NCBI GenBank assembly: GCA_949825065.1
Contig: OX463846.1
Coordinates: 10,745,366-10,809,365, forward strand
Length of the DNA stretch: 64,000 bases
DNA from: Odontocerum albicorne
Lineage: Eukaryota; Arthropoda; Insecta; Trichoptera; Odontoceridae
Direction of reading: 5' to 3'
The position numbers and the translations under genes were made by a program. The notes under the pieces were generated by a model. It ran no database searches. It was not told where the DNA came from and worked only from the letters and a program-made list of their open reading frames with translations. Below are positions 2,072-62,957 of the stretch, piece by piece; the first letter of the stretch is position 1, and every line of letters begins with the position of its first letter.

Positions 2072-3574
2072 AAAACTGAATGTGTTACTATCACACATCG
2101 GAAGATCAACAATGTTTCTTTATAGTACGTCTACCCTTGGTAAATTTTCTACGTTTATTTTATCAAATATGTTTTTCTTAACATATATTAATTCGGGGAA
2201 GTTCCTAATCTAATGGCCGCATCCCCCTCTCCATTTTTACATTCAACTTGATTTTTATAATATTTCAATAATAACATTTCTTTGAATATCGAGTTAGAGT
2301 GCGATTGAGAAGAGTATTTCCCCTAAATGGCACTGCATAAACTGTATTTTTATTATTATTTGAAACAATATTGAAAACCAAAAAATGTATGGCTGGATCA
2401 AATAAATGATATTGTGAAAGAAGGAAACGTAAAAAGTCAGAGATGGTAAAGAAGTGTATGGATATAGAAATAGCGAAGAATATATGTCGAGATAGGAAAG
2501 TCTGGCACTCTTTCATTTCTGCATACTACGATAGGGAGATGGCGTGATAATTTGTATGTATCATATGTACAATAACACGTAAATCAAGATAAAATAATAA
2601 ATAAATCATGTGTAATTATTTACTTTTTCTCCTTTATAATCAGTATTGCCTAAATAATTTATACTCATTCCTCGTTGTGTACATGTATTGTAGTCTAGAC
2701 TATTAGAAAGGTAAAACTCAAGTTTATCGCCTCGGTTACACATTATTAAAATAAAAAACGCCAAACGAGTACTATAATTCCTTCACAGGAAAATAATTAT
2801 ATGTTCCTTGTTAAAAATAACAAAAAAAACGAAAGTTAATGAACGTCGTTTGAAAAGGGTTCATTGTTTAGAACTCAATTTAATCACGATCGGAATATGC
2901 AAACTTTTATTCTCCATAACCCTTTCTGAAATACTTATTTGAACCCTGAAAACTACTCACTACATAGAATTCCAAATTACTGTGAGAGTCACCGTCCTCT
3001 TAACCAAGACTTACGGAACCCGCTGCCAACTAGACTGTGATCACGACACCCTCTTTATAAGAAGTATATACACGAAGAAACTCACTCAAAAAGCCGGAAA
3101 GATCTATAGACTTGGGAAGAAGTGAGAAATATGTGACTCGTTCACGACCCAACGGCTATTCTGTCATATTTCTGTTTTAAGAATTAACTGGTGCAGTTTT
3201 TATAATTTCCTGTCAGATGCACTGTAAGATGGCTGACAAACTCTCCTCCTTGTATTATGTACAGTGAAGAACAAACAACTATAGTATATACTCGTACATT
3301 GTTGAACAACTTGTCCAACGTTCACGCTAGAGTAATAAAAAAAGACGCGTCTCTTATTATTCGCCTAATCGCATTTAGCCAGAGCCAGGGGCCTCATACG
3401 AAAGAAAATCTAAAATTAAACCTTATACAATTACAACCTCATTTGAAACCACCTTTAAATTTTATAAACACGTATATTATTTTGTTCTAAGAAGATAAGA
3501 TGTTGATGAAACCTGTTTTTAATATTAATAAAACAGTAGCGAAATTTTCCAATTTTAAGATTTCTTTAAATTCA
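2072..3574. other. No gene recognised
   Basis: AT-rich DNA with only short chance reading frames, such as the 77-codon frame at 3257-3490, which resembles nothing I know. One TACTCGTA octamer lies at 3289. Confidence 0.4.
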
Positions 3575-4360
3575 AAAGCTTAATAAAACATGGCAGAAGT
3601 TATGTGCAACTCAGCTTATAAAACTCTAGGATTTTTAATGAGAATCTCTAAGTCGTTTGAAAGCCAATTGGTGTTCAAAAAGTTGTTTAATTCATTGATC
3701 CGTAGCAAACTAGAAAGCAATGCTTGCATTTGGAGCCCGGTGGAGGCGCAGAACTCGCTCATGGTGGAGAAAGTACAAAAAAAAGATTTACGATATCTCT
3801 ATATGAGAGAGTTCGGTGTTTATCCGTGTCTTTATCCTACTCAGTTTCTGCTGGGCATGCTCGCCTTGAGCGTAAGAAGAGATCTGCGTCTCCTGGTATA
3901 CGTAGTCAAACTCGTTCGAGGAGTTGTGAGCTGTCCAACATTACTACAAAGATTAGCGTTAAATGTTCCTAACAATTACACTAGACTGCGGAGGCAAGAA
4001 CTGTTCTCAATAACATACACAAGAACGGGTCTTCCAGCCGCTATGCCTGTTGGAAGGGTCTTAACTCTTCTGAACGGGACTGCTTCGGATATTTACATAT
4101 TTCATATCACATTACTAAAAGCAAAACTAAATTTTCTTCTTAGATTGAGCGCGTTAGAAAGCACTCATCAACATACTTAAGTGACTGAATATATGTGTAT
4201 CATATGTTTGTGTGTATATACTCGTTTGTATGCATATGCATTATTTTTTACTTTATATAATTTTTTAATTTTTTTCTATGTTATTTTTCTTCTTTTTTAA
4301 TGTCTTGTATTTTTCAAAGTAATTGGGCTAAGCCTGTTTTGAAAAAAAAAAATGGCGTAA
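3575..4360 (+). pseudogene. Jockey-like non-LTR retrotransposon, 3' fragment
   Basis: An open frame at 3590-4180 (196 codons) encodes the C-terminal part of a reverse-transcriptase polyprotein, downstream of the catalytic domain. Recognisable landmarks are TLGFLMR, LFNSLIRSKLESNACIWSP and EKVQKKDLRYLY, the 'thumb and beyond' region of Jockey-type and related elements. There is no endonuclease or YxDD box, so it is a typical 5'-truncated LINE copy. A run of eleven A's near 4345 may be the poly(A) tail. The same family recurs at 13660 (antisense) and, for the last part, at 52925 and 62140. The clade is inferred from memory of family motifs. Confidence 0.7.
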
Positions 4361-4409
4361 TGCAAATGTTAAGATAAAAAAATATGCAATAAGGATAAAC
4401 AATACTAAT

Positions 4410-5075
4410 TTAACTTAAACAAACTTTATTTCTTACATTGAACGGTGCTGATATAAAGAGAGTGAAAAAATTTAAATACCTCGGAAGTATCCTAGTGGAA
4501 GACCTCGACCCAGAAACCGAATTCAAGTGCAGAATTGAATCATCTCGTGCGACTTTTAATAAAATGAGAAGCGTATTCTGCGATGATAATCGAAACTTGA
4601 AACTTCGACAACGGTTAGTCAAATACTACGTTTGGTCAGTGTTATTGCACGGAGTGGAATCATGGACCCTCAAAGTGGGTAGTATGAACCGACTGGAAGC
4701 ATTCGAAATGTGGATGCACCGGAGAATGCTACGGATACCCTGGACGGATATGGTCAACAACACATGGGTTCTTCAAAGAGCCAAAGTTGACAGAGAGTTG
4801 CTGACTAATATTAAAATCCGAAAGGTTTCCTACTTGGGTCATGTACTTAGAGGAGCAAAGTACAAATTACTGCACCTGATCATCCAAGGCAAAATAGAGG
4901 GTCGAAGAGGTGTTGGCAGGAGCCAAATCTCTTGGATCCGCAATATACGTGATTGGACTAGCATAAGGGGCGTTGGAGATCTTTTTCGGGCTGCCGCGGA
5001 CAAATATATCTACTCTCAAGTGATATTCAACGTTGGGGGGACTTGACATGACACTGAGAAGAAGAAGAAGAAACT
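4410..5075 (+). pseudogene. RTE-like non-LTR retrotransposon, 3' fragment
   Basis: The frame at 4438-5046 (202 codons) holds the C-terminal region of an RTE-like endonuclease/reverse transcriptase: FKYLGSILVEDLDPETEFKCRI, then YYVWSVLLHGVESWTLK, LEAFEMWMHRRMLRIPWTDMV, YLGHVLRG and a basic GRRGVGRSQISWIRNIRDW. The polymerase core is missing. After the stop there is a gaagaagaagaag run at about 5057-5072, a microsatellite tail of the sort these elements carry. The segment is open, so it is not very old. Confidence 0.75.
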
Positions 5076-5229
5076 TTAAGAACAAAATGTTTATTTTCAA
5101 GTCTCTCAAATATTTACTTCAAACAAATTCATCATAGATTTGAATATATTAGTATAAAGTGATTAAAAATACGTGAATTATAAATCCTTTCGAACAAATA
5201 CAGGGTGTCTCAAAAATATATATACACAC

Positions 5230-5990: not shown

Positions 5991-6470
5991 AACTATTTTA
6001 TATTCAAGTGTTGAGTGGATGAGACAGTTATTGACTATTTTATATTAACGTGGGTGTGTAGTTTTGTCAATTAGTCTGACATATTTATTTATCCGAGTTA
6101 TTGCTTTTGATATCTGAGTGAACTGGGGATGAGACGTGCTTGCGTCTTTTTACAGGAAATATTACAGAATATATGTCAATTTCCTACTTTAGACACTTAC
6201 ACGTCTAAGGAGGATAATTTCTTGTCATATTTGATCTCCACGGTGAATTGAATCAAAAGATTTACATATTTCAATTGGGACAAAAATACGAGTATATACG
6301 AATGATGTTTTCTATAGCAAATTTCACCAGTAGAAATATATTTCCTTGTTCAAAATAACGAGGGAGAGATTAAGTGGAAAAAATCCAGATTCTTTGAGAA
6401 GATCCTCAGTTGAGAGATTCTTGGAGAATGATAAAAGGCGTTGTTGTATCCGTGGGGTGTTTTTCGTCTT

Positions 6471-9840: not shown

Positions 9841-9887
9841 CAGAGGGTATCAGTCAAACTCAACTCAGCTCAAATGATAATGCCCAA

Positions 9888-11807: not shown

Positions 11808-11939
11808 ACACCTCTCCCTTCAGCATCGCTCCAAGAATTCATAGTACGAGTATGCGATTAATAATCGCCTAAAACAATCCAGTTGAATAAAGTTTAAACA
11901 GCAAAACTAGTCCTAAAGTGAATGCGCCAGATATATTAC

Positions 11940-12344: not shown

Positions 12345-12960
12345 TTTTTTTTATCCACTTTGCACAGACTTCTCTTGTTATACAAAGAGCATCTGAGTCT
12401 ACAGTTAGCTTATTCGTTAGGAAGCCACGATTCTTCTCATGCTGCCAGGCGCTGCCGAGAATACTCGTATATCCACTGTGTCATTCAGTTGGTTCAATAT
12501 CTCTATGGTATACCACGCGTGACTGAGTGTTTGGCCATGATATTCGTTCTGTAAATTGGTATGTAGAACAGAGGGTGATTTATTGCACGGCTATATTTAT
12601 TAAGTACATATAAACTTAGTGCTTCTAGAATCGCGGGACTGTTAAAGCAACCTTGAAAAACCTTTAGTAGGAATATTGCAATGGATCCTTACCTTCTTGT
12701 TTCGAGGCTTCTATAGTTACACACTGTGAAAAGTTCCACATGGTGAGCATATTTTGAGCAATCGCCCTTTGTTCTGTACTATAGATATCTGAGGATTTTT
12801 TTTTGTATTTGTTCTATATTGTTTTAATGCTTGATCTGATGAAGAGCCAAGAGTATGCATATTGTAATTTGGTTCTTATTAGATAATTATATAAGTTTCG
12901 AAGGATATCGGTACTGTTAAATTATCTTGATTAACGACATCAAAGGTTACACTAAAATCT
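12345..12960 (-). pseudogene. Jockey-like non-LTR retrotransposon, copy 1 of a pair
   Basis: Read on the minus strand this is the C-terminal region of a Jockey-like polyprotein (SLETRR, SIAIFLLK, EALSLYVLNKYSRA, HSVTRGI). It is highly similar along its length to 28378-29245. Several stops and frameshifts make it inactive. Relative to the other copy it has an internal deletion near 12940 and two small TA-flanked insertions: TACTCGTA at 12462 and TATGGTA at 12504. Confidence 0.75.
12462..12469. other. Transposon excision scar TA-CTCG-TA (diagnostic)
   Basis: Here the sequence is gagaaTACTCGTAtatccac; the paralogue at 28505-28517 has gagaaTAtatccac. The difference is exactly six bases added to one TA. 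Confidence 0.8.
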
Positions 12961-13925: not shown

Positions 13926-14699
13926 ACTGTAACGGGACCTGAGAACCTCACCCCCACCCTCCCTCCATAAATTACTTAGATACTCTTACCACAAACTCCA
14001 ATACTCTACGAGTATAAGCAGACTCACACAGTTCCTCTGCACGAAGACCAAATGAGAGCATACTCTCTGGATCATGATACCGTTCAGACTGTACCTATAA
14101 TATTTGATAATCATTACTCTGTAAAAACACAAGATTTTACATTTCGAAATATTGATATTCAGTCTATTGATCGAACTCAACTCTCAAATGTCGTTCAAAT
14201 TCAACTGAATGAGTAAACAGTCTTCAAAAAAAAAGGAAATTATAACACAGGTTACATGTAAATGTAAAATTTTATTTCTAGATATTTTTTTTATCTTTTC
14301 TATCGAAATGTCATTTGTTACTTATTTCAATTTATATGTCAAATTTTTATATCGCACTAAATCCATTTGTGCTTTAAAAAAACACGATTGAGCGTAATTT
14401 AATACAGCAAACGGCTCTTTATAAAATATTCCTATTTTTATACATTCTGTATTTTCTTGTTGAAAATATATCCATTTGTCCGTTTTAAAAAGTATAGTTG
14501 AAAGTATATTCGTTTTAAAAAAATATATAGCATGAAAATGGTATTGAAAAATTATCCGACACTTACGTGTCGTGGAAAATCCCAACGAACACGCCAAATG
14601 CAATAAACCAGTTAAGTGGAAGTCTGGTCGTTGCACTTCATGCTACATATTAACAACAGCTATGAGAATAAAATACAAGAAACTAATATTTTTTATGAA
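13926..14699. other. No gene recognised
   Basis: AT-rich. Holds one TACGAGTA at 14007 and a 104-codon minus-strand frame (14322-14636) with no similarity I recognise. Confidence 0.4.
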
Positions 14700-15125: not shown

Positions 15126-15934
15126 TTTGGTACCTTATTAATGTAATATATACAAATTTGATACTAAATTACTGTGTAATAAATAAAAAGAAATATTGAA
15201 TTTCATTATTTGAAATAGAATGTGTTTTTTTTATCAAAATTAATTTGAAAAAGAATGTGTTTTTGTTATCAAAAGTTATGTACATTATTACTGAATTATT
15301 TATATAAAAATCTGCGCAATGAATTAAAGCATAATTATATTAAAGCAAATTGACATTTGATTTATTATTTTGTATTTACGTAACTTTATGTAAGAAAAAA
15401 GCGTTTTACTAATAGTGATAATGATTCAAAGACAATTTATACAGCGCCTTTTAAAAAGCAGACTAACCTCAAGGTCGCTCTAGCTATGGGTTTAATCCTA
15501 CTTTAGTTGACAAATTAAAAATATTACAAAATAAATATATATGTTGATAATGGATGAATAGGTAGTGACTGCGGCCATTAGATGAGGTATTTCGTCGCAA
15601 ATTTATGTTTAGAAAAATATATTAGGTAAGAAAACCGCTGAAAACTTGACAAAGACAAACTACTAAGAAATTTTAGTAGATCTTCCGATATGTGATATGA
15701 AATATATTTATTAATTTTTAATGTACGAGTATATAAATTAAAATTATGAATAATTTTTAAATCATTTTAGATATTTAGTTTATTTTGACCAGTGAAAACA
15801 TCAATTCAAAAATCGTTTTACTAAAATTTTCATCTTAAACATTCTTCAAATAGAAAACAATAACTAACTGAAATGCAAAGCGTTTTGTGTTTATATTAGA
15901 AATGAAATCCCTCGCCACTTGGAGTCGCTAACGT

Positions 15935-16298
15935 ATTGAATATTTATAGCTATCCGAAGTTTCCCGTATTACTACAATATTTTGATATTTTTGCGCAGTA
16001 CATATTACATCCTGTCCGTCAGCCATCATTTGACGTATAAATTATTAAACCTTACCAGGACACTGCCTCTGAACATATAACTACGAGTATACCATGAAAC
16101 AATTAATTAAGCATCAAAAAGGATTGAACATTTATAGCTTTCCGAAGTTTCCCGTATTACTATCTTGATACTTTTGCGCGGTACATACTGCACCCTGTCC
16201 GTCAGCCATCAGTCGACGTATCAATTATTAAACCTTACCAGGACACTGCCTCTGAACATACAACTATGCCATGAAACAATTAATTAAGCATAAAAAAC
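15935..16298. repeat. Imperfect tandem duplication of about 180 bp
   Basis: Copy 1 (15935-16116) and copy 2 (16123-16298) share ccgaagtttcccgtattact, cctgtccgtcagccatca, ccttaccaggacactgcctc and atgaaacaattaattaagca. Copy 1 alone carries TACGAGTA at 16082. Confidence 0.9.
16082..16089. other. Transposon excision scar TA-CGAG-TA (diagnostic)
   Basis: Copy 1 reads aacTACGAGTAtaccatg; copy 2 (16262-16272) reads aacTAtgccatg. Apart from one substitution the difference is a 6-bp addition at TA. Confidence 0.8.
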
Positions 16299-16429: not shown

Positions 16430-17520
16430 TAGTTGGCGTGATGCATGATGCTGAAACATGGGTATTGATATAAAAGGAAAACAAGAAGATAGACGCCTTA
16501 TATCAGACTATCGTTAGACCCGCAATTATGTATGGCTCAAAATGCTGGACTATGTACAGCTCCTACTCTAGGCAACTTGAAACAGCAGAAATGCGAATGC
16601 TTAGGTGGTCGGCAGGAGTATCACTAAAAGATAAAATTAATAGATCACGCATTCGTGGTAGCCTGGGAGTTACTGACATAAATATTAAGCGGGAAGAGCG
16701 ACAGCTGAGATGGTACGGGCACATAAGACGGAGACCACCAAACCATACTGTAAATCAGGCAATGTCTGTGGATCTTCCTCGACAGCCATCCAGAGGAAAA
16801 CCAAAGAACTCCTGGATGGCTCAATGCTCCAAAATCCTGCAGAGAACCGGCCTAGATGAAAGCGACACCCAGAACCGAAGAATATACAGCCTGAGAACGA
16901 GAAGAGCTGACCCCAACAGCCTACCTAGGCAATGAGTTGGGACAGTGCCAGGAAGAAGAAAGAAGAAGAAGATAGACGCCTTAGAGGTGAAGTACTAGTG
17001 ACAAATGTTGCGAATATCTTGGACATCAAGTCAAATGCATGAAATCTGGAAGAACTACGTTTGTATTCAATTATCAAACAAAGATATTTAAAAAAACAGT
17101 GTTCATTTTAAACGCAGTTATTAAAAATAGGTTTTATTAAGTAGTTTATAAGGACATTACAATACCTCATCCATATAGTGGTAGATAAAGAACTTAATCT
17201 GACATGTTCATACGAGTACATCAAATCAATTCCTGGAAGAACTACAAATCGAACAGTGTTTGTCTTCAATGATCCAACTTCGAATCCTCAGGTACTTCGA
17301 CCATATTATTTGACGGGAAGATACATTGGAGAAACTGATGATCCAAGGTAAAATATATGGGTGCCGATCTGGGTACAGATCATTTACACGATTGATAGGC
17401 GTGCTAAAGAATACACATATAACTTCAAAAGTTGTAGTAGAAATGCTACTAACTGACCATGAAAAATACACGCGTATCGTTATTTCTGCCGTGTGGTCAA
17501 TTGAAACTTCTTCAATAATT
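16430..17520 (+). pseudogene. Old RTE-like retrotransposon interrupted by a younger one
   Basis: Left of the insertion the frame reads AETWVLI, stop, KENKKIDAL. Right of it, it resumes KKIDALEVKY and then MLRISWTSS, the 'ETW.L ... KIDALEMKYLRRMLRISWTD' block of RTE-like elements. Further on, 17270-17515 encodes IGREDTLEKLMIQGKIYGC and a relic of the final helical region up to SAVWSIET. Multiple stops show long decay. The interruption at 16501-16965 is a separate, better preserved element. Confidence 0.75.
16501..16965 (+). mobile_element. 5'-truncated RTE-like insertion with target duplication
   Basis: The open frame 16528-16935 (135 codons) is an RTE-like C-terminus: MYGSKCWTMYSS, ETAEMRMLRWSAGVSLKDKI, RGSLGVTDIN, LRWYGHIRRRPP, then a basic end RRADPNSL. 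It ends in a gaagaaagaagaa tail. The flanks carry an 18-bp direct repeat, aagaagatagacgcctta, at 16483-16500 and 16966-16983, although part of the right copy overlaps the GAA tail. The intact frame suggests a relatively recent insertion. Only the last fraction of the element is present, as usual for target-primed reverse transcription. Confidence 0.85.
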
Positions 17521-19330: not shown

Positions 19331-20010
19331 CTGTAGTGTCAAGAAGGATAAAAAGGGGCTTTGTTGGAGAGCTTAGACATCTAAAACGAAGAGGTTATAA
19401 CAGTTTGACAAGAATTTAATAACGTTATAAAAAATCGTTAGAAGCACGGTAAGGACACAAGATATACGTGGTTTTTGAAGCAATGGAGTTTTAGATGTGA
19501 AATTTAGAAATTTTAGAAATCAGACATTTAAATAAAGTATACAAAAAGGTAAATGTACGAGTATATGGATGAGGCGAAAATGTATTAACTGTGCGTGCTC
19601 TTGCAGTAAAATTGGTAATTTCATGGTACACATGCATGTTCTTGAGAATATCCTACAAATTCAACAAATGCTGTCTCAGGAAATGACTCAAAGGCTTCCC
19701 TTTAATAATTTATTTCATAATGATTGATTCAACGTCCACCCAAGCATTTCAGTATGTCTAACATGTTTTCTTATGAAAAGGCATATCAAATTGTACGCTT
19801 GCTTTAATAGATGTATATGTTTCAATTATTTCCCTTGTGATAGTCTGATTTCCAATACATTATATTATATTTTCGAGTCGAAAGTAGTTGAAGAAAATTA
19901 TCCATTCATTGAAAAGGCTTAAAATACCACTCAAATTATTCTATGGGTGACTTATAAATACGTTCAGATTACTCCATTTTTTAACTTGTATTTTAATATA
20001 AACATATATA
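19331..20010. other. No gene recognised
   Basis: AT-rich, with one TACGAGTA at 19556. Confidence 0.4.
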
Positions 20011-20015
20011 TACGA

Positions 20016-20436
<421 letters not shown>

Positions 20437-23300: not shown

Positions 23301-24104
23301 ACGAATTCATGGATATTATAGACTTTGATGTGCCTTGCATTTTGGTAGTTTAAGAGAACTAGGAGTTAGGAATAAAGAATATTACTAGCTTAATACAAGT
23401 TTAATCATTATTATATATTTTTGAAAAAAGGACTTTTCAACCATTTTACCGCCACTCTTTATAAACTTATCTTAATAACGGTTTTTGTTTACACTACTGT
23501 TATTTTCACGATTTCTATTTTTAACAGTCTCAGAAAGCACTGTTTTCAACCAAATGCTTCGTTTTCGAGAAAGTTAACGTTCATTGATTTAAGCGAGCGT
23601 ACACAGTTTTGGCCGAACGCCAGCAGCTCCCACTAAGCCTGCAGGTTTGTTCTGGGGGCTGGCCGCAAACATTCACTACTTGTCATTACTTCACCTTCAG
23701 ATAATGTTTAAATACGCTTTCCATACAGTTGGATAATTTCATTTGTTTCTCATTAGAGAAGTAGATTAATGTCTACTTAAAATCATAAAAACCTCATGCT
23801 GGAAAACAAACGTTATGCCAACAAGGCTACAGGCGTTGAGATTGAGGTCCTACCTTGTTTTTTCTCGAATTGTTACATTTTTTTATCTAACGTTGTCATT
23901 TTTAGTTAAAATCTTAAAATATCATATACACTCTGTTAAAAACTGACTGTCTGACGAATTTATGTTTCTTCATATACTCGTATCCGAATAAATCTGGATA
24001 TAATCGAACATGATAAAAATAAAATTTAATTAAAAGTTTACCTACAAATAAAATTTAACTAAAAGTTTATCAAAAAAAAAAAGTTCATCCAACATATTTT
24101 AGGA
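23301..24104. other. No gene recognised
   Basis: AT-rich with a GC-richer patch at 23600-23670. One TACTCGTA at 23975. Confidence 0.4.
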
Positions 24105-27507: not shown

Positions 27508-27658
27508 TGTGGCAATAATTTCTTCCACAACCTAGAAAAAAAATTAAGTGAAAAGCAGACAGAAATCCTTTTATTTAATAAAACTGGACATAACGGAAAT
27601 ACTCGTAGAACAGCAACCCCCGAGCTGAAAAATAGGCGTCTTACTAACTAGGTCACGT
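27508..27658 (-). repeat. tRNA-headed SINE carrying an octamer insertion
   Basis: The tail is at the left (acatgtggcaataatttctt), the antisense A-box at the right (cgtcttactaactaggtcac). In the B-box region the sequence is six bases longer than in the copy at 46524 because of TACTCGTA at 27600-27607. Confidence 0.7.
27600..27607. other. Transposon excision scar TA-CTCG-TA (probable)
   Basis: This SINE reads ggaaaTACTCGTAgaaca before gcaac; other copies have ggggatcaaactc there. Removing six bases brings the spacing to within one base of the consensus. Confidence 0.55.
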
Positions 27659-36692: not shown

Positions 36693-37100
36693 GTCAATAT
36701 ACTCGTATCTAGTTATGATATTTTTCTCATTTTAAATAAGTATTGAAGGCATGTTGAAGGCAGGCATAAAATTTAAAGCTGAGTCGTATAAATTGGTTCT
36801 ACTTAGTCCAATGAACAAAGTATCATTTTTATGTATCTACGACCGATTTCGACCATTTTCACAACATACAATAAAAATTCAAAATGCTTATGAAAATGGA
36901 AACACAATATGTAACAAGAAAGATCTGAATATCGAAACACTAACATGATTCATACAATTTACTGTCAAAAGGAACAACAAATATACAACAGGTCAGCGCT
37001 CAATAAAATATATTTTATAAGGTATATATGAAAACATTTATAGCTCCTTACATTTAATTTTAGTAAAAAAGGTTCCCATCCCCTAAGTCCGGTCCAGCTT

Positions 37101-40303: not shown

Positions 40304-42393
40304 TATAATTATTAATATATTGTCTGATGTTAGTTTTCAGTGATATAAAATAATATTTAAGTAATGATACAATAAAAGTTCAAAAAGTAATCAAATATTG
40401 AAAAACGATAAATTATCTAATAATTCAAAGTAAACAACCTTTTTAATATATTTTTTCAAAAAAAATCCGCTGTGGGTGAACTGTCCTACCCATCGTGTAA
40501 GACAAAAATTTGACGTTATTATGAAAAAAGGCCCATCTCACATTTTACAACTTCTCAGATAATTGAGGAAATATCGCGCCCCTTGTATAGTAAGAACTTG
40601 TACGGATTAAAAAATCTTGAAAATGTAATTTAACCATGAAATAACCATTTAACATACTTCATATTTTTGCAGATACATACAGAATTGATGTATAATTCTT
40701 GGATTTTTTAAATATATCAAAAATATATTTGAAATATCCAACATGTTTACAAATAAATAACTTTCCTATTCCACTAATTACACAAATCACCAGTCTGACC
40801 TAAGCATTACTCTCGTAACAAACTTGGATCATTCAAATATTATATAAACACGTGTAGCGGGATTAATGTAGGTTAGTGGAATAAGTCATTTAATGTAAAA
40901 TATTCTTACATGAAGTTTCACAAAGTTAAAACTGAAACCTTAATTAGTGAATTTAATATTCCCTATATACAAACATATGTGTATGCAAGCATAAAAATAA
41001 TTTAAACTATTAAATGTAATAGTTTAAAACCTCGAAAGAATGTCTTAATAAAATTCACGTTACAAGAGAATCAAAGCTGACCGCTCGTAATTGATTCTCG
41101 GTCGAACCTTTTGATAAATAGAAAATATATGTTTTGTGGATTGAGTCCTTTTAACACATATATGTCCGTTAGAAGATTTTAAACTACTATTACCGGCCGC
41201 ATCTGAGAAGACAGGGAATGATTCATAACCCAATATTAACCGGAGATCAATAAACGGTTACTAGCCCGCTGCACATTGGTTCAAAATTTAATACTAAATT
41301 CTAATTGCTTTAATCATAAGACTTTAATGTAGTTTGTAAGCAGATTAGAAGGAATATTGTAGTTCTTTATAAGTAAATGCAGTGTAGGGGTGAGCAATGA
41401 AAGTTAAGAACAAGTAAGAAATCTCGCTAATTGGATAGTTCTTTTTACATAATAAAGAGCTACAAAATATATTGAACGAAGTAAAATGAAAAGAAACAAT
41501 GTCAATGGGAAAGTAAAACATATTAACTTGAAACAAGCAGTGTTAAAAAACATTAAAAAAAGATCTCAGGTGTATTTTAGTGTCAACTATGATGGAGAGT
41601 GAAATATAAGGGTGAAAAAGACCAAAAGAAATCTAAATTTAATTGAATGCGATAACTTTGTGTGACAAAATTCAGAAGGAAATTGTTCAGAAAAAATATG
41701 AATCAATGATTAATTTAATTAATAAGCAGAACGAGAAGAGTTTTTTTGAGATCAAAATATCATTTGATTCAATTGTTCTTACTGTAAACTAAATGCCTTT
41801 CGGGCTATATCAAAAGTCCATTCTAAAATGTCGGTATATATTTTCATTGTTCTTTGAAATGTATTATTAGATCAATGTTTGTCGCCCCTCAGACTCTACA
41901 TACGAGTATAATGAATAATTATCGGTCATACGCCCATTATAGTCCAGTTTTATGGTCGCCCTGAACCCTACGCTAAATCTTACAAAATAACAATGCCTGC
42001 TAAATAATATATAATGTCCGCTTATAAAATAACTATGTCATCTCGAAGATTAACTACATTAATCTTCTACTGTATGACCTTGATTATCCATATTATATAT
42101 CTGACCTTAAATTTCATAGAGGCTTGTATTACTTTATTTATGATAGGGCTGTCAAACCGCAACTGGTGTTGAGTATTAAGTTGGGAACAAAGATCGTTAA
42201 AAAATCAGAATCAAATTTTAATTATTAAAGAATATTTTATTATAAAGTATATGTTACTGCAAGGGCATCTTAAAACCACATCCTTATTGATTTACGAGTA
42301 TGTATTTTTTCAGATACAGTTGTTCGATCCCATCGATGGGGACAAAATAAGTCTCCATCCAGCGCGATCTACACTAAAATATCGAAATCTTCT
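40304..42393. other. No gene recognised
   Basis: Two kilobases of AT-rich DNA; TACGAGTA at 41901 and 42293 only. Confidence 0.4.
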
Positions 42394-43735: not shown

Positions 43736-44695
43736 TACTAGGTAAGTCCAGAAAGTAAGTGTACTGAGTTTTTGTAGGTTACAATTTTTTTTATTTAAAC
43801 AAAAAAATTACGTGGTTACCGTAGTACATATGTAAGCTATTTTTCGACATAGTCGCCATTCCTCTCAATGCAGGTGGTGAAGCGCCGTATCAACTTTTTG
43901 ATGCCTTCCTCGAAGTAGTTTCCCGCCAACCCCTCCGTCCACTTCTCCACCTCCTCCTTTACCTCCTCGTCGGCTGAAAACCTTTTTCCACCCATGTGCA
44001 GCTTCAGGGAGGTAAAGAGATAGTAATCTGAAGGTGTTAGGTCAGGGGAATGCGCGGGATGGTTCAGGACATCCCATTTAAACGAGGCGAGCAGTTCATT
44101 CGTGGCGTTGGCCGTGTGTGGTCTGGCATTGTCGTGCAGCAGGCAAACTCCCTTTGTCAGCATGCCTCTCCTCTTGTTCTGAATCGCCCGCCGCAATTTT
44201 TTTAGGGTTTCACAGTATCTTGCAGAGTTGACGGTCTCCCCTTGAGGCATATATTCAATTAAAATTATGCCTTGACAGTCCCAAAACAATTTCGTCAATT
44301 TCGTTAGTCACAATTGAAGGTCTTCCGCTCCTCTGATCATCATGCACAGACGTACGACCGTTTTTAAACTCGCGACACCACTTGTACACACTCGTACGGT
44401 TCATAGCTTTATCACCATATGCAGTTTTCACCTCATTATAAACCTCAACCGGAAGTTTTCCCTTCCAAACGAGATAACGGATGACGCCCCGTATTTCGCA
44501 CTTGGCGGGAGATTGGATTTACGTTTTTCACGAAACGTGTTGTCGCGTCGACACTTCTCAACATACTGACCTCAAACCGGTCTCGTTGCGGAGGGGAAGG
44601 GTCAGGTTACACGGAAGTGTAGCCAACATGTCGAAAAATAAAATCCATCCGGTCGTGAGAGCCTCAGTACTCTTACTTTCTGGATACGCCTCGTA
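43736..44695 (-). mobile_element. Mariner element with both ends, internally deleted
   Basis: Inverted ends, read inward: TA-CTAGGTAAGTCCAGAAAG from 43736 and TA-CGAGGCGTATCCAGAAAG from 44695, then gtaag(t/a)gtactgag in both. TA dinucleotides border each. The 960-bp length compares with about 1.3 kb for complete mariners. The right end starts CGAG. Confidence 0.9.
43837..44490 (-). pseudogene. Mariner transposase, internally deleted
   Basis: The N-terminal part (44485 down to about 44300) reads VIRYLVWKGKLPVEVYNEVK, then SVYKWCREFKNGRTSVHDDQ and RSGRPSIVTNEIDEIV, the paired helix-turn-helix region and linker. It jumps directly to WDCQGIILIEYM and then HDNARPH and SPDLTPSDYYLF. The last two catalytic Asp residues are 34 residues apart (D34D, a mariner signature). 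The stretch with the first catalytic Asp is deleted, and the two parts are in different frames near 44298. Cannot be active, but its ends could be mobilised by another mariner. Confidence 0.9.
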
Positions 44696-46244: not shown

Positions 46245-46252
46245 TACTCGTA
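46245..46252. other. Transposon excision scar TA-CTCG-TA (diagnostic)
   Basis: FFL-stop-N-YSY-V here versus FLW-V-Y-V in the relative at 53735-53755. The two added residues are exactly the 6-bp insertion at TA. Confidence 0.8.
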
Positions 46253-46337: not shown

Positions 46338-46345
46338 TACGAGTA
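46338..46345. other. Transposon excision scar TA-CGAG-TA (diagnostic)
   Basis: RFIADIRVRIHLC here versus RVIGESEPQLC in the relative at 58979-59014. Without six bases the two align residue for residue. Confidence 0.8.
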
Positions 46346-48031: not shown

Positions 48032-48625
48032 CAGCGATTCCCATCGGTGAAAATATTGCCCTTTGGGGGCGAATTTTATTTTTTTAGGGAGGGCATTAAG
48101 GTTTACAGAATAATTAGGGGGCGTTAGGGCTTTCAAGGGAGTCATTGTGGCTATAAAATATTCTAGAAATAAAAACAACAGTTTTAGTTTGGAAAAGCTA
48201 GAAGTTCTTAAAAAATTACAAAGTGTCAGAAATATGAGAGTTTCAGCGAGATATAAAATATAAATCGACTTAAAATTGACAGTCGTGAAGAGTTTAGACT
48301 TTTTATTACAAAACTGCAACCAAATATATGAAAACTCACGAAAAATCCATGTAACATAAGTAGCTCACATTAATAATGATAATCATTATTAAGTTTATTA
48401 ATTTCATATTTTACAATCGTGTTCATTGATGATAGTTTTATAATTATTACAATTTAATGTTTTGACGAAATAAACGAACCAACATATTAGTATCATTAAA
48501 CGCGTTTTTTAACCTTATACTCGTATTTACAAGAACTAGCAATATCCGATGATCCTCTAGGAGGACTTCGATTTATTCTAAGATGCTGCAAGGGAGCGAT
48601 GGTCCAAAAAAGTTGCGAAACCCTG
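48032..48625. mobile_element. hAT-type non-autonomous element, copy 2
   Basis: Ends CAGCGATTCCCATCGG and ...GTTGCGAAACCCTG match, in reverse orientation, the two ends of 32283-32631, as do agggctttcaaggg(a/g)gtcat and cttcga(t/c)ttat. It is longer (594 bp) because of about 240 bp of extra internal DNA. The left flank is ACTTACAT. The right flank becomes ATTTACAT only if six bases of the adjoining TACGAGTA are discounted. Confidence 0.7.
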
Positions 48626-48628: not shown

Positions 48629-48636
48629 TACGAGTA
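48629..48636. other. Transposon excision scar TA-CGAG-TA in an 8-bp target duplication
   Basis: Right flank atTACGAGTAcat versus left flank ACTTACAT. Removing six bases restores a 7-of-8 match. Confidence 0.7.
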
Positions 48637-48860: not shown

Positions 48861-51800
48861 GCGAAATAAACTTTTTACGCAATTCCCAGCAAAAGTTAAT
48901 TCGAATTTAGTGTTCCTTAATCTGTGTAGTTTTTAAGCGTCGACTTTGATGGAAACTAAATGCTTATATCGTTGTTGGAGTAATCTCGATAGCACAGTGG
49001 TAAACATGCTGGTGAACCGCAATTAGTTAAATGTTAATTAGCATAGTTAACATTATATTTATAGCCAGTGTCGGACTCGATTTTATTCTCTTACGATCTG
49101 TAAAAATAATCAGACTGCATTGGATTTATTATCCTTCCTCATTATTATGTCATATTATTTTAGATTGATAATGACAATGGTCTGATGAATGGTAATTTGT
49201 TATTTATTATTAACATCTCAGTTTTTAACAACCCTCTAGACATCATTTCACCTGTAGTGCTTCAAAATTACCTTTTTGAAAATAAAAAATAAATTTAGAG
49301 TCTATATTTTAATAAGCATAACGCTAAACTCGTAAAATCGTCCCTTTGTTATTATTATTACTCTGAAGAAAGTCTCTGAACACTGAGCCGCCGTAAGCCT
49401 TTAGATTCTCAGGCAACGCTTTCTAGTCGTTAAACAGGTTCATTCAGTTAGAAACATTCGACTTGTTGGCTCTGTTTAGATCAATGGCCTTTTGATATAT
49501 CTTAATATTCGACGCAGTATCAACGGACGTCTCATAAACACGTCGATTTCTTGATATGAAAATGTCATTGATTATATATAAATGTCATTTCTTAGACAAA
49601 AAAAAATGCTCGAACATACCATACAATCAAACAATCATGGTTTAAACATCTCATTTCCTTACATAATTATTATTAATTAACAAAATTTAATGTTACAGTG
49701 CATAAAAAAACTAATTCGTCTCGCTTTATTAGTGTCCAATTTGACAATAACGGTTTGAACATCTCATTTCCTTACACATTTCACCCGTTGAGCAGAGTTT
49801 GCTTTCTAAAGGTGTAATGTACTCGTAAATTGCACTTTTATTTTTATTAATTAACAATAACAATATAATGTTACAGTGAACAAAAAAACTCATTCGATTG
49901 CTTTGTTAATTAGTTAGACATGCTTTGTTAGTTAGTTAGACATGCTTTGTTAGTTTTTAGGTTCACAGTTAACACAAATCTTAACAATGTTTCATAAAGT
50001 TGACTTTCAATGTTCCACATACTTTTTTTACTGCTTTTTCCAGTGTCCATGAAGTTTTTTTTTTCAATATTATTGTTGATGTCCACTCTTGTTATATGAA
50101 ATGTTTTAAGGTCTATTTTATTGCTGTTTTAATTTTTTTAATAAATAAATAATGTCGTAAGGGTCTCAAAGGAATGACTACATATTAAGATGAAACATAA
50201 TCAAATGCAAAATTATTGGACGATACGGACATAGAATGCTATAGAAAAATCAGAATTCTTTTTTTTTATTTGGTGCTGAAAATTATAGGCCAATTTTTTC
50301 TTATAAATTTGGCCATAGTAGATTTTGTCATATTTCCCACAACGTGGTTTCTTAATGAAGAATAACAATGAAATTATATATTTGAGCCAAATATTTTTTG
50401 AATAAATTGAAGGATAAATCACAAAGTAAATCTGTTCTATTTAATTCTTAAATCTGAAACATATCCCTTACCCGCCCCTGGTTCTCCAATTCAAAATTTA
50501 AGGGGACTCCCCTTCCGTGTTACTTAGGGAAAGGGGCATATAACACGCATCGTTTGACTTTTCAATAAATTTCATTCACATAGTTTAGATTAGTTCTCGG
50601 TTGGTTCTGAAAAGTAATTATTTTGGTTGATTTACATCAATCTCTTGGCTGTAGTTTTTTCTATAACTTCAAATCTCTCACAAGCATTTGAATTTCTTAC
50701 CCTGATTTAAGTGCATATTAAAAATGGCCAGAATCAACGTTTTCCCTTTCATATGTCAATGTTTTAAATAGGTCAACGTGGTGCCTGCTATTAATGAGAA
50801 GGTTGTATATATTAAACGTAAAATATTTCCAAAACTGCAAATCTTGAAAACGATTTACTTATTTCCGATGGACACAAGCGAGAAAAATACAATTAGTTTA
50901 CGCAGAATATCAACTCGTATACGGATTTTTTTTTTGATAATATGATATCCCTTATGATCGAAATGATTGTCAGTCATCTTAAGGAAAGAAAACGCCTATG
51001 CACAAATAAGTTTTTAGTATACAAGCTGTTGTATTTGTATACAAGCTGTTGTATTTGTAATTTGAATAAGCACAGTCTTGACATATCAAACCCAAAGTTC
51101 CGATACTGAGGACATCGAAGTTCCATGCCTTTCGTTAGACAGAGTTTTATATAGCGCTATTTTTATGTTGCATAATGGCGCTGTAAGAATTTATGATAAA
51201 CAATTTATAAGGTATAGAAAAACATAAATTCTAATATAAAACAGTCCACGAGTAATATCAGTCTAGAAATGAATCCGCTAGGAATCTTACTTGGGGCATC
51301 CACTTGCAGAGCATGAATGTTGATTTCTCTTTGTCTTATTCTGTTCTGCCATAGACTCTAAAGGCAATGATACCTTAGAAGAATCGATTTAGCATCCTCA
51401 AAAATTTGGTGACTTTTGTGGATACCGAAAGTTACACCTAGTGATGAGTTTAAGAAGTCTGTACTTCTCACCAAGTCACATATTACCCAACTGCTACTCT
51501 ATTTTTTACGTCAACAGTTAGCATCCTCTTTTAACTCCAGCTTGACTAAGGAACATATGAGATGCTCAATATCTAATATGAATAGCAACAGACATCGATT
51601 CTGATATTTGGGAAGAAATATGCATATAATAAAGTGTATCTGCCTACTCTACGATAGACAGAGGACACAGACTTTTGTTTTCACAATATGGTATACAACT
51701 TTCACAGTCTCAACATCTATTCATCTTCTCAAGTCATTGATAAAGTTTCTCCGACTCCTCTGTTGTCTTGCCTTTTATTTAATTAATACTAACCATCATA

Positions 51801-53220: not shown

Positions 53221-53234
53221 ATTTGTTTATATAG

Positions 53235-55635: not shown

Positions 55636-58629
55636 ATGTCATCGCCCCCCTTATCTCCCGATGATTCCATGACTCTACCTACTTCGCATACCCTTCTATC
55701 TACTCCCTCACCCTTTCCTGAATTCCTATCTACATTGGACACGTCATCTTCAGACTCTTCAGATTTCGCTGATACAAACCCGCCATTACTTTTGAATAAT
55801 CATCTCCGCTCTGCTTTCTCTACAGCTAACAATGACTTTCACGCATGCCATATAAATGCCCAAAGCATACCCGCCCATTATTCTGAGCTGCTCACCTCAT
55901 TTCATGACCAGCCTGTCCATGCCCTGCTGGTTAGCGAATCCTGGATGAAACCATCACTATCAAACTCACTTTTTTCTCTTCCAGGATTCCATCTAGTTCG
56001 GCGAGACAGGGTGGGGAGAATGGGAGGAGGAGTCTGCATATATTTGAGGAATAATATAAATTTTTCTATCATCTGTCAATCCCAAGCTCCTTACTCTGGA
56101 GGCCCAGAATATTTATTTATATCCCTTCACTACAACTTCATTAAATATCTCATCGGAGTAATATACTGTCCTCCTAATAATAATTATTTTGACGAGTTAG
56201 AAAAACTTCTTGAAGATCATACTCCTAATTTCAATACCACTCTCATAATGGGAGATTTCAATACGTGCCTTAAAAAAAATGACGGCCGATCTGATAAACT
56301 CCTGAGAATCGTACAGTCAATGAACCTCTCAATAATGCCCCTAAACTGTACACATGTAACAAGAAATTCCCAAAGCCTTCTAGATTTAATTATTACCTCA
56401 AATCCCTCTGCAGTTCGAACTCATGGACAAATTGATGCTCCAGGCTTCTCGCATCATGATTTGATATATATCTCACTGATCAACCACGCTCCGAAACTCT
56501 CAAAAGAGAGAAAATTCCTGAGAAGCTTTGGACGCGTTGATAGGGACGCCTTATTTTCCGACGCAAGCGAAGTTGACTGGGCGGCCATCGAACGATTGGA
56601 TAATATAGATAGTAAAATAAATCTATTCAACACGTTTTTACTAGAGCTCTGCGACAAACACGCTCCACTTAAACTTACTCACTTAAAGTATAGACCTGCC
56701 CCATGGCTGACTGACGACATTAAAAAAAACATGGCTAGACGTGACAAAGCGAAAAAAAACTTCAAATCTAATCCCAATGATCAACTATGGGAGATTTTTC
56801 GACGACTTCGCAATAAATGTACACAATTATGTCGGAATGCAAAAAGAAAACACTATTTTGACACCCTTCAAAACTGTCAGCCTGCAAAAAGGTGGAAGGT
56901 CCTGAACTCGATGGGTGTCAAATCCTCGGACACCTCAGGTAACTTCACATTAGATGTTAATAACCTTAATAGACATTTTGCAACACCATCACTCAGTTTA
57001 GACATTACCACAAAGGAGAACACTCTCCGAAAAATTCATGTAATGCCTCGACCCAATGTTCCTGAGCTCCACTTTTCGGAGGTTGATGTAGGTGAGGTTC
57101 GTCGTATTCTTTTGACTATATCCTCAAAAGCGATGGGTGACGACAATATTTCGATTGTATTCATCTCCTTCATTATCGATGCTATTCTTCCTATCATAAC
57201 ACATATTATAAATTTTTCTTTGTCTACTAGCAGCTTTCCTAGTGTATGGAAGAGGGCTCTAATTATTCCGATCCCGAAAGTTGACTCACCCACGTCATAT
57301 AAAGATTTTAGGCCCATATCTATTCTGCCCACACTATCCAAAATTATTGAAAAAATTGTTCATATACAAATTGACTCCCACCTTAATCAATTTGAATTGT
57401 TTAATCCATTGCAGTCAGGATTTCGTCCGGGACATAGTACCACTACCGCACTGGTCAAGATCACGGATGACGTGAGACGTGGAATGAGCTTTAAGCAGTT
57501 GACATTGTTATGTCTACTGGATTTCAGCAATGCATTCAATACTGTAGACTTTGATCTGCTTATGGCTCGAATGCGTTCATTACGATTCTCTGAATCGGTC
57601 ATAGTCTGGTTTTCGAACTATTTAAAGGGAAGACAACAATCCTGTAAATACCAAGAGCGTATATCTGAATGGACTGATCTCTCTGCAGGCGTTCCCCAAG
57701 GTGGAATTCTCTCTCCACTCCTTTTTTCTATATTCATCAACCCAATAACATCGTCTCTTAAATGTTCTTATCATCTGTATGCAGATGACCTGCAGATATA
57801 TATTCATTTTGATCCAAATTTCTATCACGCGGCTTTGAACAATTTAAATACGGACCTTCAATCGATCTCGGAGTGGACTGGGGAGCATGGCTTACTCATC
57901 AATCCTAAGAAGTCTCAAGCGATCCTCATTGGCAGCCCTCAGCTTCTCGGTAAATTCAACACTGACTTACTTCCTCCAATATTACTTGATGGCTCTATTA
58001 TACCATTACATAAAACTGTTAAAAACCTAGGAGTGCTAATAGATAACACTCTCTCATGGCGAGATCAAATAAATGAGGTAAGCCGAAGGATCTTCTTCAG
58101 CCTTCATTCCCTTAAAGTGTTGCAAAGATTTCTACCAACTAAAACCAAAAATTTACTCGTACAATCTCTGCTCTTTCCGATTCTGGACTATGCGGACGTA
58201 TGTTACTTGGATGTTACAGAGGAACAGCTGGACAAATTACAGCGTCTTCAAAATGTGTGCCTAAGATTTATTTTCAACCTACGAAAGTACGATCATATAA
58301 CTTCATACCAGAAGGCATTGAACTGGTTGAATGTTAGAAATAGACGCCAAATTCACATACTGTCTCTATTGTATAATATCCTTAACTGTCCCGCCGCACC
58401 CTCTTATCTCGCCGAAAATTTTCAGCGTCTTTCCAATCATGGATTAGCGCTACGCTCAAACAGAGATTGTTTATTGGCCTTTCCAGTTCACCGCTCTTCT
58501 TTTTTCACGTCGTCCTTTACTGTCCATGCAGTGAGACTTTGGAATCAGTTACAAACCAATATAAGACTCGCTCCGTCCTTGGCATGCTTTAAGAAGCGAC
58601 TGAAAAAACTCTTAATTTCTAGTCAGTAA
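55636..58629 (+). CDS. LINE ORF2: APE endonuclease plus reverse transcriptase
   Basis: 997 codons from ATG 55636 (an in-frame TTG and nine codons lie upstream), intact to the stop. An apurinic-type endonuclease occupies residues about 65-280: HACHINAQSI, LLVSESWM with the catalytic Glu, IMGDFNT, LLDLIITSN and the terminal FSHHD. The reverse transcriptase covers about 540-800: FRPISILPTLSKIIEKIV, QSGFRPGHSTTTAL, CLLDFSNAFNTVD (catalytic Asp), AGVPQGGILSPLLFSIFINP at about 684 and YADDLQIY at 715, the catalytic YADD. The C-terminus (KLQRLQNVCLRFIFNLRKYD and beyond) is the LINE 'Cys-less' tail. All expected catalytic residues are present, so the copy may be competent. There is no RNase H domain. 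A TACTCGTA at 58154 is ordinary coding here. Confidence 0.92.
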   Translation: MSSPPLSPDDSMTLPTSHTLLSTPSPFPEFLSTLDTSSSDSSDFADTNPPLLLNNHLRSAFSTANNDFHACHINAQSIPAHYSELLTSFHDQPVHALLVSESWMKPSLSNSLFSLPGFHLVRRDRVGRMGGGVCIYLRNNINFSIICQSQAPYSGGPEYLFISLHYNFIKYLIGVIYCPPNNNYFDELEKLLEDHTPNFNTTLIMGDFNTCLKKNDGRSDKLLRIVQSMNLSIMPLNCTHVTRNSQSLLDLIITSNPSAVRTHGQIDAPGFSHHDLIYISLINHAPKLSKERKFLRSFGRVDRDALFSDASEVDWAAIERLDNIDSKINLFNTFLLELCDKHAPLKLTHLKYRPAPWLTDDIKKNMARRDKAKKNFKSNPNDQLWEIFRRLRNKCTQLCRNAKRKHYFDTLQNCQPAKRWKVLNSMGVKSSDTSGNFTLDVNNLNRHFATPSLSLDITTKENTLRKIHVMPRPNVPELHFSEVDVGEVRRILLTISSKAMGDDNISIVFISFIIDAILPIITHIINFSLSTSSFPSVWKRALIIPIPKVDSPTSYKDFRPISILPTLSKIIEKIVHIQIDSHLNQFELFNPLQSGFRPGHSTTTALVKITDDVRRGMSFKQLTLLCLLDFSNAFNTVDFDLLMARMRSLRFSESVIVWFSNYLKGRQQSCKYQERISEWTDLSAGVPQGGILSPLLFSIFINPITSSLKCSYHLYADDLQIYIHFDPNFYHAALNNLNTDLQSISEWTGEHGLLINPKKSQAILIGSPQLLGKFNTDLLPPILLDGSIIPLHKTVKNLGVLIDNTLSWRDQINEVSRRIFFSLHSLKVLQRFLPTKTKNLLVQSLLFPILDYADVCYLDVTEEQLDKLQRLQNVCLRFIFNLRKYDHITSYQKALNWLNVRNRRQIHILSLLYNILNCPAAPSYLAENFQRLSNHGLALRSNRDCLLAFPVHRSSFFTSSFTVHAVRLWNQLQTNIRLAPSLACFKKRLKKLLISSQ

Positions 58630-58940: not shown

Positions 58941-59451
58941 GAATGACCCCCAATCAATTCCTGAACTGAAGGACGAAATTATTCGCGTTATTGGTGAGTC
59001 AGAACCACAATTATGCCAAAATGTCATCGAAAATTTTGACAAAAGAGTGGACATCTGTGGATCTGCAAGAGGTGAACATTTGACTAATATTGTTTTTTGT
59101 GTTTAAATGGCATACATTATACTTCAATGACCAATTAAAAAAAATTAAATCAAAGCAAATTGTGTGTTTTATTCAAGAATTTAAAAAAAATAGAATTAAA
59201 AAAAAACGCTCAATTTTAAAGACCTTTTAATATAAACAGGCACGTTGATTTCTTCCAACGCTTAAGGAATCATATCCAAGCATACCTTGTGGGCAGGTGG
59301 TATAATTGTTTTTAGCCGACATAAATCGAGCCTTCACTGGAGTAGGAAGTGAACTTATCGTTCGAAATCACAGACGCTAGCAATACTCCCGCACTTGGAG
59401 AGGTAAAAACACTCGCACACTTATATCGTGTACATTGTTATCAGTCGATTT

Positions 59452-59565: not shown

Positions 59566-60635
59566 CATCTTGGAAATTACACTAAGAGAACCGCCCCCTA
59601 TATACATTTTCCATAATAAAAGACCAAAAGAATTTTAAAACGCTTATTTTGTTTAAATACCAGTGATAAGTCAAATGAAAGCTGTCAGTTAGTATTTTAT
59701 TAATTTCAAAACTTTATCATAATTTAATTCAAAACTTTATCATAACGACAAAATAATTAAATAATAATTTTCTTAATAGCAATGTTCCCTATGAATATAT
59801 ATCCTGTAATTTTTTCATGCTAAATATCCTCAGTGAGATACAGGCAAAAGCCTAGTTTACTGGGGATACGACAAATGAAAGGCAACAAACCCAGATCCAT
59901 TAAAATTATATGTCCAAATCAAATTACCTGTTGTTTTTTCTCAAATTGTGTATATTTCTTGTCATGTGTAATAAAAATAATAATAATAATAATAATTAAA
60001 CTTGTATGTAAAGGCAATGGAAACACATTTGGTAGAGATAAGCTTTTAAAAGAAGAACTTATCTCTACAAACGCAATTGGTATAGATAATTTCATCTTAT
60101 AATATCCTCAAGATCGAGTTAAATGTCACAACAAAAAGTAGGCAAGCCCGAATACGAGGACGTCAAATGTTTTATAGACTACACCTTTGTACACTTAAAA
60201 TATATTGAAAAGTTAATAAACAAATAATAATAAACAGTTCATACAAAAATAAACCTAATAAACATGTTCAAAAAATATAAACATACACACTCACACATAC
60301 AGATGCAAGCCCAGATTCACTGCTAGCATAAAGAGAAAAAAAGATAAGTAGAGTTCAAATTTTGATAAGTAAATAAATACTTATTTTTCTAAAATAATGG
60401 CCGTGAACTCCTTTATATGAAGGAGTATACGCCAGTGTCTGTTTTTAAAAGTTCTATTCACATAGGCGACATATCGACATACTCGTAGTTCAGTTTTTGC
60501 GTCCGTAGTTATTATTTTGAGTATGCTAAAGCAACTTGACCCGAGTTTATTATTATCTAGTGAGATAATATGGCGTGAAACTTTTTTAAAAATAAACAAT
60601 GTGCATGATTAACAACGAAATGCAAGAAGATAAAA
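59566..60635. other. No gene recognised
   Basis: Contains a 20-bp word aattcaaaactttatcata duplicated at about 59704 and 59725 and an (AAT)n stretch at 59968-59995. One TACTCGTA at 60480. Confidence 0.45.
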
Positions 60636-60953: not shown

Positions 60954-61918
60954 TTAATAGACAAAAAATAACTACAAAAATAAGTTTAACTGAGTAACTA
61001 GTCTAAGAATATAACTAAACTCTTACCATATATGGTATCCGTAACCTATCTTTAGTCAGGTAATATCATACTAAGAGTTCTTGCCATAGCCGAATATTCT
61101 CCATTTACACTAACAACAAACCACTCAAATACCACAAAATAAGGCGATCGACAGCGTGGACTATCAAGAAGGTAAATACGCCTCCAGTCCCTCTATCGGA
61201 AACCGGATACGGAAGTGACGTACGACAAGCCCAAACACCGCAACCCCTAAACTTGGACTACTGTTAATTCATGGGGTTAATATATACATGTTGGACTAAA
61301 AGGAAATTTCCTATTTCGATTGGCCGCTATTTTGGTAAAATAAATTACAAGTCCACAAGAAATTCCACGAGTTATTAGCGCATTGCCTTGACTTAATGAG
61401 CAAAGTTTTGAAGGCAGTGAATGAAGCCTTCATCTTTAGGGTGATGTAATGAAAACACCGATGAAAATGATAATAAAGCTATAAAGAAAGTGGATTGTGG
61501 AAAATATTTTGGAGATATCAATAAGCATTTGAAATTTAGTTAAAATGTCGAATTTGTAACTAAATAAATTACATCAAGGTAAATTTTCTTACTTGTAGAA
61601 TTAGATGTTCGAAGTTCGACCGAATTAGTAAATGATACAATTATAATAGCATCACTTATAGAGAGGAATCCAGAATTCCCTGATAGTTAACCGAGTCCAA
61701 AAGAAATTTCTGCGACACCCTGTTTTGCAAAGTGTATGGATTCTAACCATGGCGGTTTCACACATATTTTTAATGGGTATCCTAACATGTAACTCCTTAA
61801 GCGTTAGAAAAGTTTTACGCGCATATTTTTATGTAAACAAATAGGCAACAGGAAACATAGCAAATCCTTTGCTGACTGACAATTGTTTTTCTTCAAGTAC
61901 TGAAGAATTGTTACAGAA
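60954..61918. other. No gene recognised
   Basis: Nothing identified; a slightly GC-richer patch at 61140-61260. Confidence 0.4.
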
Positions 61919-62103
61919 TGATTTGACACTTAAACGTAAAAAAAATTGTACACAATAACTTAAATTAAAGTGACAGGTCTGTTTTGTTTTACAAAAGCAT
62001 TGTTACACTGTTAATTTTGACTATGCTTTTGTAAAGCGAAACCGATCTATAACTTTAATTTGCGTTATTGTGTAGAATTATTTCGTATTTAAGTTTCAAA
62101 TAT
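61919..62103. mobile_element. Imperfect foldback element
   Basis: Left arm tgtacacaataacttaaat, aaagtgacaggtctgtttt, ttacaaaagcat is mirrored by atgcttttgtaaagcgaaac, gatctataactttaattt, gcgttattgtgta around a roughly 22-bp loop. Arms about 80 bp and roughly 80% matched. No target duplication settled; no coding. Confidence 0.75.
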
Positions 62104-62139
62104 TTATGTAATAAAATAGATTTCTACAATATAAACACC

Positions 62140-62385
62140 AAATCAATTAGTACCGGACAATCATTCACGTCATCATGAATGAAGATTGTTATCGATATTG
62201 CATTCATGAAGTAAGATGTTTAGAGTATCATCACTCGCACACGGAATGACCCTGTAGAATTAATTTTCCGATACCGATATCTTCCATATCTCTGCAGATA
62301 AATTGAGGATGGAACTCCTTAATAAACTTTGTAAGTAAAACTCAGTCACTTCACAAGGAAACATGAGTAACACTGTCCCTGTTGT
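62140..62385 (+). pseudogene. Jockey-like C-terminal fragment, sense
   Basis: Decayed counterpart of 52925-53220. Relics such as DNHSRHHE, SSLAHGMTL, FSDTDIFHISADKLRMELLN are recognisable. The DNA ttg-ggatggaactccttaata and cacttcacaaggaaacatga parallels that copy. Confidence 0.6.
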
Positions 62386-62957
62386 CGTTATATTTATATT
62401 ATACATGCTATATTTACACTTTTATTTAAAAAAAATCTTGTTTTATATAATTGGGATAAATCTGTTTCAAATGTAATAGGTATAATAAATAATTGTTCAA
62501 GTATTCTTTTTCTGTGCAATCAAACTCAATAGGGAAACTTCAACTTATAAAAAATAAAGGGTTTAAGACTTTTTTTTAATTAAGTGAAAACACTAAAAAT
62601 AAAGTTCTACTTTGTAATCAATTGTAGATACGAGTACGTACATGATAAAATTATCTATATTTTAATATCTTTAAATGTATCATTTACTATAATGACCTCA
62701 CGCGAAATCCAATGACTTTCGGGTTACGAAAACCAAAATAACAAAAAGTTAAATAATCAATACTACAAAGACTTCAAAATGCCAAACAGTATTTAAGAAA
62801 CTGAGAGCATGCAGAGTTTTGTCTTTTTTTTTTATATGTTAAAAATAAATTTAATTATTGTATTATAGAAGTAAAATCAAAATACATAAATGTATTTTTT
62901 CTGATGATGCAACTTACTCGTAATGAATAAGGTTAAAATTAGTTCATAATTATTTTA
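62386..62957. other. No gene recognised
   Basis: AT-rich; two octamer scars (62639, 62915). Confidence 0.45.

Follow-up and report, generated by a model that had tools for sequence, protein, structure and literature searches.

The 64-kilobase (kb) stretch analysed here, called the window throughout, covers positions 10,745,366 to 10,809,365 of contig OX463846.1 from Odontocerum albicorne (Trichoptera). It carries 24 exact copies of the octamer TACGAGTA/TACTCGTA, about 1 per 2.9 kb, of which 13 read TACGAGTA and 11 read TACTCGTA on the plus strand. An earlier note had listed these copies, with 23 of the 24 positions right and one, given as 62639, truly at 62629, and had taken the octamer for the excision scar of a Minos-type transposon. 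Our analysis indicates that about 22 of the 24 are probably excision scars of a TA-inserting Tc1/mariner element with CGAG ends, four bases of which were retained. The individual sites are as follows.

3289..3296, minus strand: presumed scar, exact match; no informative relative in the window
6287..6294, plus strand: presumed scar, exact match; without a relative across the site
11845..11852, plus strand: presumed scar, exact match; about 40 bases past a matched long terminal repeat (LTR) stretch ending at 11807
12462..12469, minus strand: scar with a clean empty relative; the relative at 28.4 kb is shorter by exactly six bases at TA
14007..14014, plus strand: presumed scar, exact match; without a relative across the site
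15724..15731, plus strand: presumed scar, exact match; the alignments found are weak and AT-rich
16082..16089, plus strand: scar with a clean empty relative; the tandem copy at 16.26 kb is shorter by exactly six bases
17211..17218, plus strand: presumed scar, exact match; without a relative across the site
19556..19563, plus strand: presumed scar, exact match
20011..20018, plus strand: scar in an (AT)n array, weaker; the collapsed form aligns gap-free with the array phase intact
23975..23982, minus strand: presumed scar, exact match
27600..27607, minus strand: scar in a repeat resembling a short interspersed element (SINE), less exact; the collapsed form reaches the 7.85 kb copy (E = 1.3e-8)
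36700..36707, minus strand: presumed scar, exact match
41901..41908, plus strand: presumed scar, exact match
42293..42300, plus strand: presumed scar, exact match
46245..46252, minus strand: octamer; alignment to 53.7 kb gapped whether the six bases are kept or removed
46338..46345, plus strand: scar lying in a transposase relic; its frame is longer by exactly two codons than that of the relic at 59.0 kb
48518..48525, minus strand: octamer, leaning against a scar; alignment with 32.4 kb obtained for the occupied form alone, three bases being gapped
48629..48636, plus strand: octamer; a simple search for the claimed left hAT partner found none
49820..49827, minus strand: presumed scar, exact match
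58154..58161, minus strand: octamer, not a scar but ancestral jockey coding sequence; the relative at 25.6 kb reads ACTCGTG
60480..60487, minus strand: presumed scar, exact match
62629..62636, plus strand: presumed scar, exact match
62915..62922, minus strand: presumed scar, exact match

The excess of this one word was pronounced. In 100 dinucleotide shuffles of the window the octamer appeared 1.37 times on average and at most 4 times, and Markov models of order 1-4, with the octamers first collapsed to TA, predicted 0.9-1.6 copies. The over-representation reported earlier was thus borne out, and chance or composition was ruled out as its source. Masking seven tandem arrays removed only the copy at 20011, which rules out a tandem-array artefact as well; the remaining 23 copies still topped all 5971 8-mers with three G/C bases (mean 2.5) and exceeded the commonest 8-mers with two (15), four (10) and five (6) G/C bases. 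One further octamer, at 16082, belongs to a two-copy tandem that was not masked, and the other copy lacks it. Among words of the form TA-NNNN-TA, only TATATATA and TACGAGTA were in strong excess, with z = 15 for TACGAGTA and 3.8 for the next best word. The positions were compatible with a uniform spread along the window (Kolmogorov-Smirnov p = 0.89).

The single-sided hexamers TACGAG (18) and CGAGTA (13) showed no excess over the approximately 20-22 expected under an order-3 model. This rules out the octamers being the ends of present elements, and means that the window contains scars without an abundance of element ends. The TACGAG hexamers without a following TA were distributed unevenly, 17 on the minus strand and 1 on the plus strand, and nothing shared was seen in their downstream sequences.

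The relationship between the octamer and a plain TA can be examined wherever the window holds a relative of the surrounding sequence. At five of the 24 sites such a relative was six bases shorter at TA, cleanly at 12462, 16082 and 46338 and more weakly at 27600 and 20011, while 14 sites had no informative relative in the window. In these comparisons the insertion sits at TA, with TA flanking the retained bases on both sides. The host repeat copies at 12.4 and 28.4 kb are 79% identical, and the 183-base tandem copies at 16082 are 86% identical. At 46338 the frame of the relic reads IADIRVRIHLCESVIENF as it stands and IADIRIHLCESVIENF with a single TA, the latter having the same length as IGESEPQLCQNVIENF in the relative at 59.0 kb; the automatic DNA alignment set the gap several bases off the octamer. 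The occupied form at 27600 had no spanning match in this comparison, and the collapsed form spanned to the SINE-like copy at 7.85 kb. The evidence at 20011 is weaker, as the phase of an (AT)n array survives an insertion of any even length. Of the six copies claimed earlier to be comparable with a relative, 12462, 16082 and 46338 are clean and 27600 is less exact, whereas 46245 and 48629 were not confirmed. The proposal that TA became TA-CGAG-TA by excision is well supported.

The flanks of the octamers carried a further signal. Read by eye, the flanks of the 24 copies share no sequence past the octamer, so the octamer does not belong to any longer repeat. Statistics were calculated on 22 octamers, excluding 58154 and 20011. 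Counting outward from TA, position three is T in 16 of the 22 flanks on each side, compared with 36% at TA flanks generally, so that a bias toward AT-rich targets is present. After CGAG-TA a pyrimidine is followed by a purine (20/22 and 19/22); the opposite flank (14/22 and 13/22) is not clear. Tc1-type elements favour CAYATATRTG as a target, and the flank bias of the octamers resembles this preference.

These features would fit a simple course of events. The element would insert at TA and double it, giving TA-element-TA, with ends reading CGAG...CTCG. The excision cut would leave four terminal bases of an end at the site. When the flanks are joined, either of two mismatched four-base tails, but not both, would be retained, yielding TACGAGTA or TACTCGTA. 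We infer a transposase, a four-base stagger and end-joining repair behind the scars. The fill-in product TACGAGCTCGTA occurred 0 times in the window.

Several observations weigh against this reading. Empty relatives were found for only 5 of the 24 sites, two of them weak. At 48518 only the occupied form aligned to 32.4 kb, and it did so with a three-base gap. At 46245 the alignment to 53.7 kb remained gapped with or without the six bases, and the restored alignment claimed for this pair was not confirmed. The argument from a hAT target-site duplication at 48629 was not confirmed either: in a simple search of 44.0-48.6 kb no left-hand partner turned up. The site at 15724 gave only weak, AT-rich alignments. 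The octamer at 58154 is coding sequence and was ruled out as a scar: all 120 of the 120 listed jockey homologues are gap-free within five residues of it, and the relative at 25.6 kb reads ACTCGTG. From the background, one chance octamer among 24 is to be expected. The two sides differ in flank bias, which is stronger after CGAG-TA (sign-flip p = 0.023), as though the flank influenced which tail is kept; such an asymmetry would not be expected if the tail were chosen at random. No intact donor lies in the 64-kb window. From the literature, a passage of PMC6980720 describes one fly line with four additional bases, not six, after Minos excision, and the relevant part of a review (PMC3878927) gives Tc1/mariner overhangs of 2 or 3 bases, which would make a four-base stagger an exception.

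The identity of the donor was considered separately. The retained CGAG, which occurs in both orientations, matches the start of published Minos and CGAGG mariner ends, but the donor itself was not found in the window. Minos ends begin TACGAGCCCC in the primer given in a passage of PMC3680223, and passages of PMC3386967 and PMC10992017 describe the Minos footprint as six bases, which is the difference seen here at the empty relatives. Minos, an element of Drosophila hydei, therefore shares with the scars the TACGAG start of its ends, the six-base footprint and the TA target. In contrast to that system, no Minos-like end was present in the window (best match 9 of 25 mismatches; shuffled queries 7-9), and the scars form a natural, donor-less field at the density given above; no such field without a donor appeared among the literature matches listed on excision footprints or on this octamer, as far as their excerpts go. 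CGAG is not specific to Minos, since it starts 15 of 17 Rhodnius mariner ends in a table passage of PMC4678618 and several aphid mariner ends in a passage of PMC5490172. The label Minos agrees with the ends and the six-base footprint, but CGAG also occurs in mariner ends and no Minos-like end lies in the window. The statement that 64 kb hold no intact donor was literally right, but it passed over one eroded element.

43736..44695, minus strand: eroded DD34D-type mariner with CGAG-type ends, not an intact donor (ends, inverted pair, Pfam Transposase_1)

This element is 960 bases long and internally shortened, with the ends TACGAGGCGTATCCAGAAAGTAAG and TACTAGGTAAGTCCAGAAAGTAAG, and no other CGAG-ended element was found in the window. 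Its ends differ from those of aphid Apismar1.1 by 2 and 4 of 30 bases, compared with 10-12 mismatches for 15 shuffled queries, and a Pfam Transposase_1 match lies in its frame at 43837-44307. Its ends are of the CGAGG type, a finding that concerns the element and not the scars. TACGAG...CTCGTA pairs whose inner bases also match numbered 5, compared with 1-9 in each of 10 scrambled-end controls. As the pair search did no better than its controls, the mariner identity rests on the match to published ends and the Pfam match. Apart from the mariner, the pairs comprised two nested palindromes (52.1-52.3 kb), a match in an AT array and a weak pair.

A rival source of the same scars would be a DD34D mariner with CGAGG ends like those at 43736-44695 that keeps four bases instead of the three of Mos1. 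Such mariners (Apismar1.1, Rpmar33 and others) share the CGAG start and the TA duplication with the scars; the sole CGAG-ended element found in the window is of this kind, and the excerpted sources show many Rhodnius and aphid mariners with ends of this type. Nevertheless, Mos1 cutting leaves a three-base overhang in the passage of PMC4505599, whereas the scars here keep four bases, and the three-base scar TACGATA expected of a Mos1-like cut was not enriched in the window (6 copies, with about 9 expected). In addition, erosion is seen in the mariner of the window but not in the scars. We regard a mariner donor as possible, though falling short of probable. A Minos-type Tc1 element or its miniature inverted-repeat transposable element (MITE) is slightly favoured over a CGAGG mariner that cuts with a four-base stagger, and Minos is a possible name for the donor.

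Short insertions made in some other way, for example through errors of repair or replication that recur at AT-rich TA sites, would account for the preference for AT-rich flanks. Such errors would not be expected to produce the single fixed word CGAG or its complement, and the other TA-NNNN-TA words showed no comparable excess. We consider this origin very improbable.

Excision by a Tc1/mariner element, our preferred reading, also bears on the age of the scars. One-mismatch forms of the octamer numbered 37 in the window, compared with 39-42 expected from the background. Because they do not rise above background, there is no sign of scar decay. With the order-2 background of 42, a divergence of 0.05 would yield 37 or fewer one-mismatch forms with a probability of 0.021, and a divergence of 0.03 with a probability of 0.066; the order-3 background of 39 makes this bound looser. 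The host repeats, with their 79% and 86% identity between copies, are more diverged than the scars. If we assume 100 copies, each leaving once per ten thousand generations, one scar would arise per hundred generations, and tens of thousands of scars could build up in a few million generations, within the divergence bound at ordinary mutation rates. With a scar left at each departure and a constant copy number in the family, the scars can come to outnumber the elements, and no unusual process is needed. The earlier suggestion of excision on a large scale rests on one 64-kb window, and massive synchronous excision is not required.

A more unusual route to undecayed scars would be programmed somatic excision: the elements would persist in the germ line, but developing body cells would lose them by excision, leaving only scars in an assembly from body tissue. 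The scars would then lack decay because they are remade each generation from selected ends, and the window would lack an intact donor, as it does. Scars simply accumulating for a few million generations would account for the same facts. To our knowledge, no germ-line/soma excision system of this kind is known in insects. Programmed elimination with mariner footprints in insects was likewise absent from the excerpts of the literature matches listed. In the ciliates, according to such excerpts, programmed elimination is a TA-bounded excision across the genome, like the TA-bounded scars here; in contrast, the DNA here is from an arthropod, a six-base scar remains and nothing points to developmental excision. 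If true, the process would be an animal counterpart of the internal eliminated sequences of ciliates with a visible six-base scar. We consider it very improbable.

Least probable is a functional motif, such as a protein-binding site held by selection, which would explain why the exact word is over-represented without an excess of near-misses, but which does not suit a six-base indel within decayed repeats that occurs in two orientations, spreads uniformly and has no other flank in common.

A transposase relic at 53259-59105, with a repeat starting GGGTCTTTCAAATT at 53.25 and 53.5 kb, appears to have been interrupted by a jockey element that carries a long open frame. This frame (55600-58629) showed at most 51% identity to the best 120 of 476 relatives; the named organisms among these 120 are Lepidoptera, as classed from their names, plus one archaeal genome bin that we take as contamination. 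Bacterial and archaeal contigs scanned with a jockey profile gave 82 pattern matches and no relative. The retroelement-like stretch at 8062-11807 has LTR-like direct repeats that are 97-99% identical, with long in-frame tandem arrays of periods 16, 22, 102 and 116 between them, and contains no octamer. At 52110-52347 lies a near-perfect nested palindrome with the ends TACGCGCGATTCGAGTAGCGCG, perhaps a hairpin or a MITE-like element. The widespread SINE-like repeat, with the core GTGGCAATCTCTTCCAGCCAA, has 7 copies, for example at 338-378, 7781-7821, 24939-24979 and 46520-46560. A SINE word matched two viral contigs (GC content 44% and 63%), both free of the octamer; a protein scan of viral contigs in general gave 11 pattern matches and no relative, and the aphid-type mariner end occurred 0 times in viral contigs. 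Rfam (gathering thresholds) and ARAGORN found nothing in the window.

If the density of scars seen here is general, it would be unusual, and the count of one eight-letter word would read out past transposon excision, vanished copies included. Germ-line excision and end joining in a wild species would become countable and datable, and the extent to which copy number understates the activity of a family would show. Over-represented short words in repeat-rich genomes can be scars rather than motifs.

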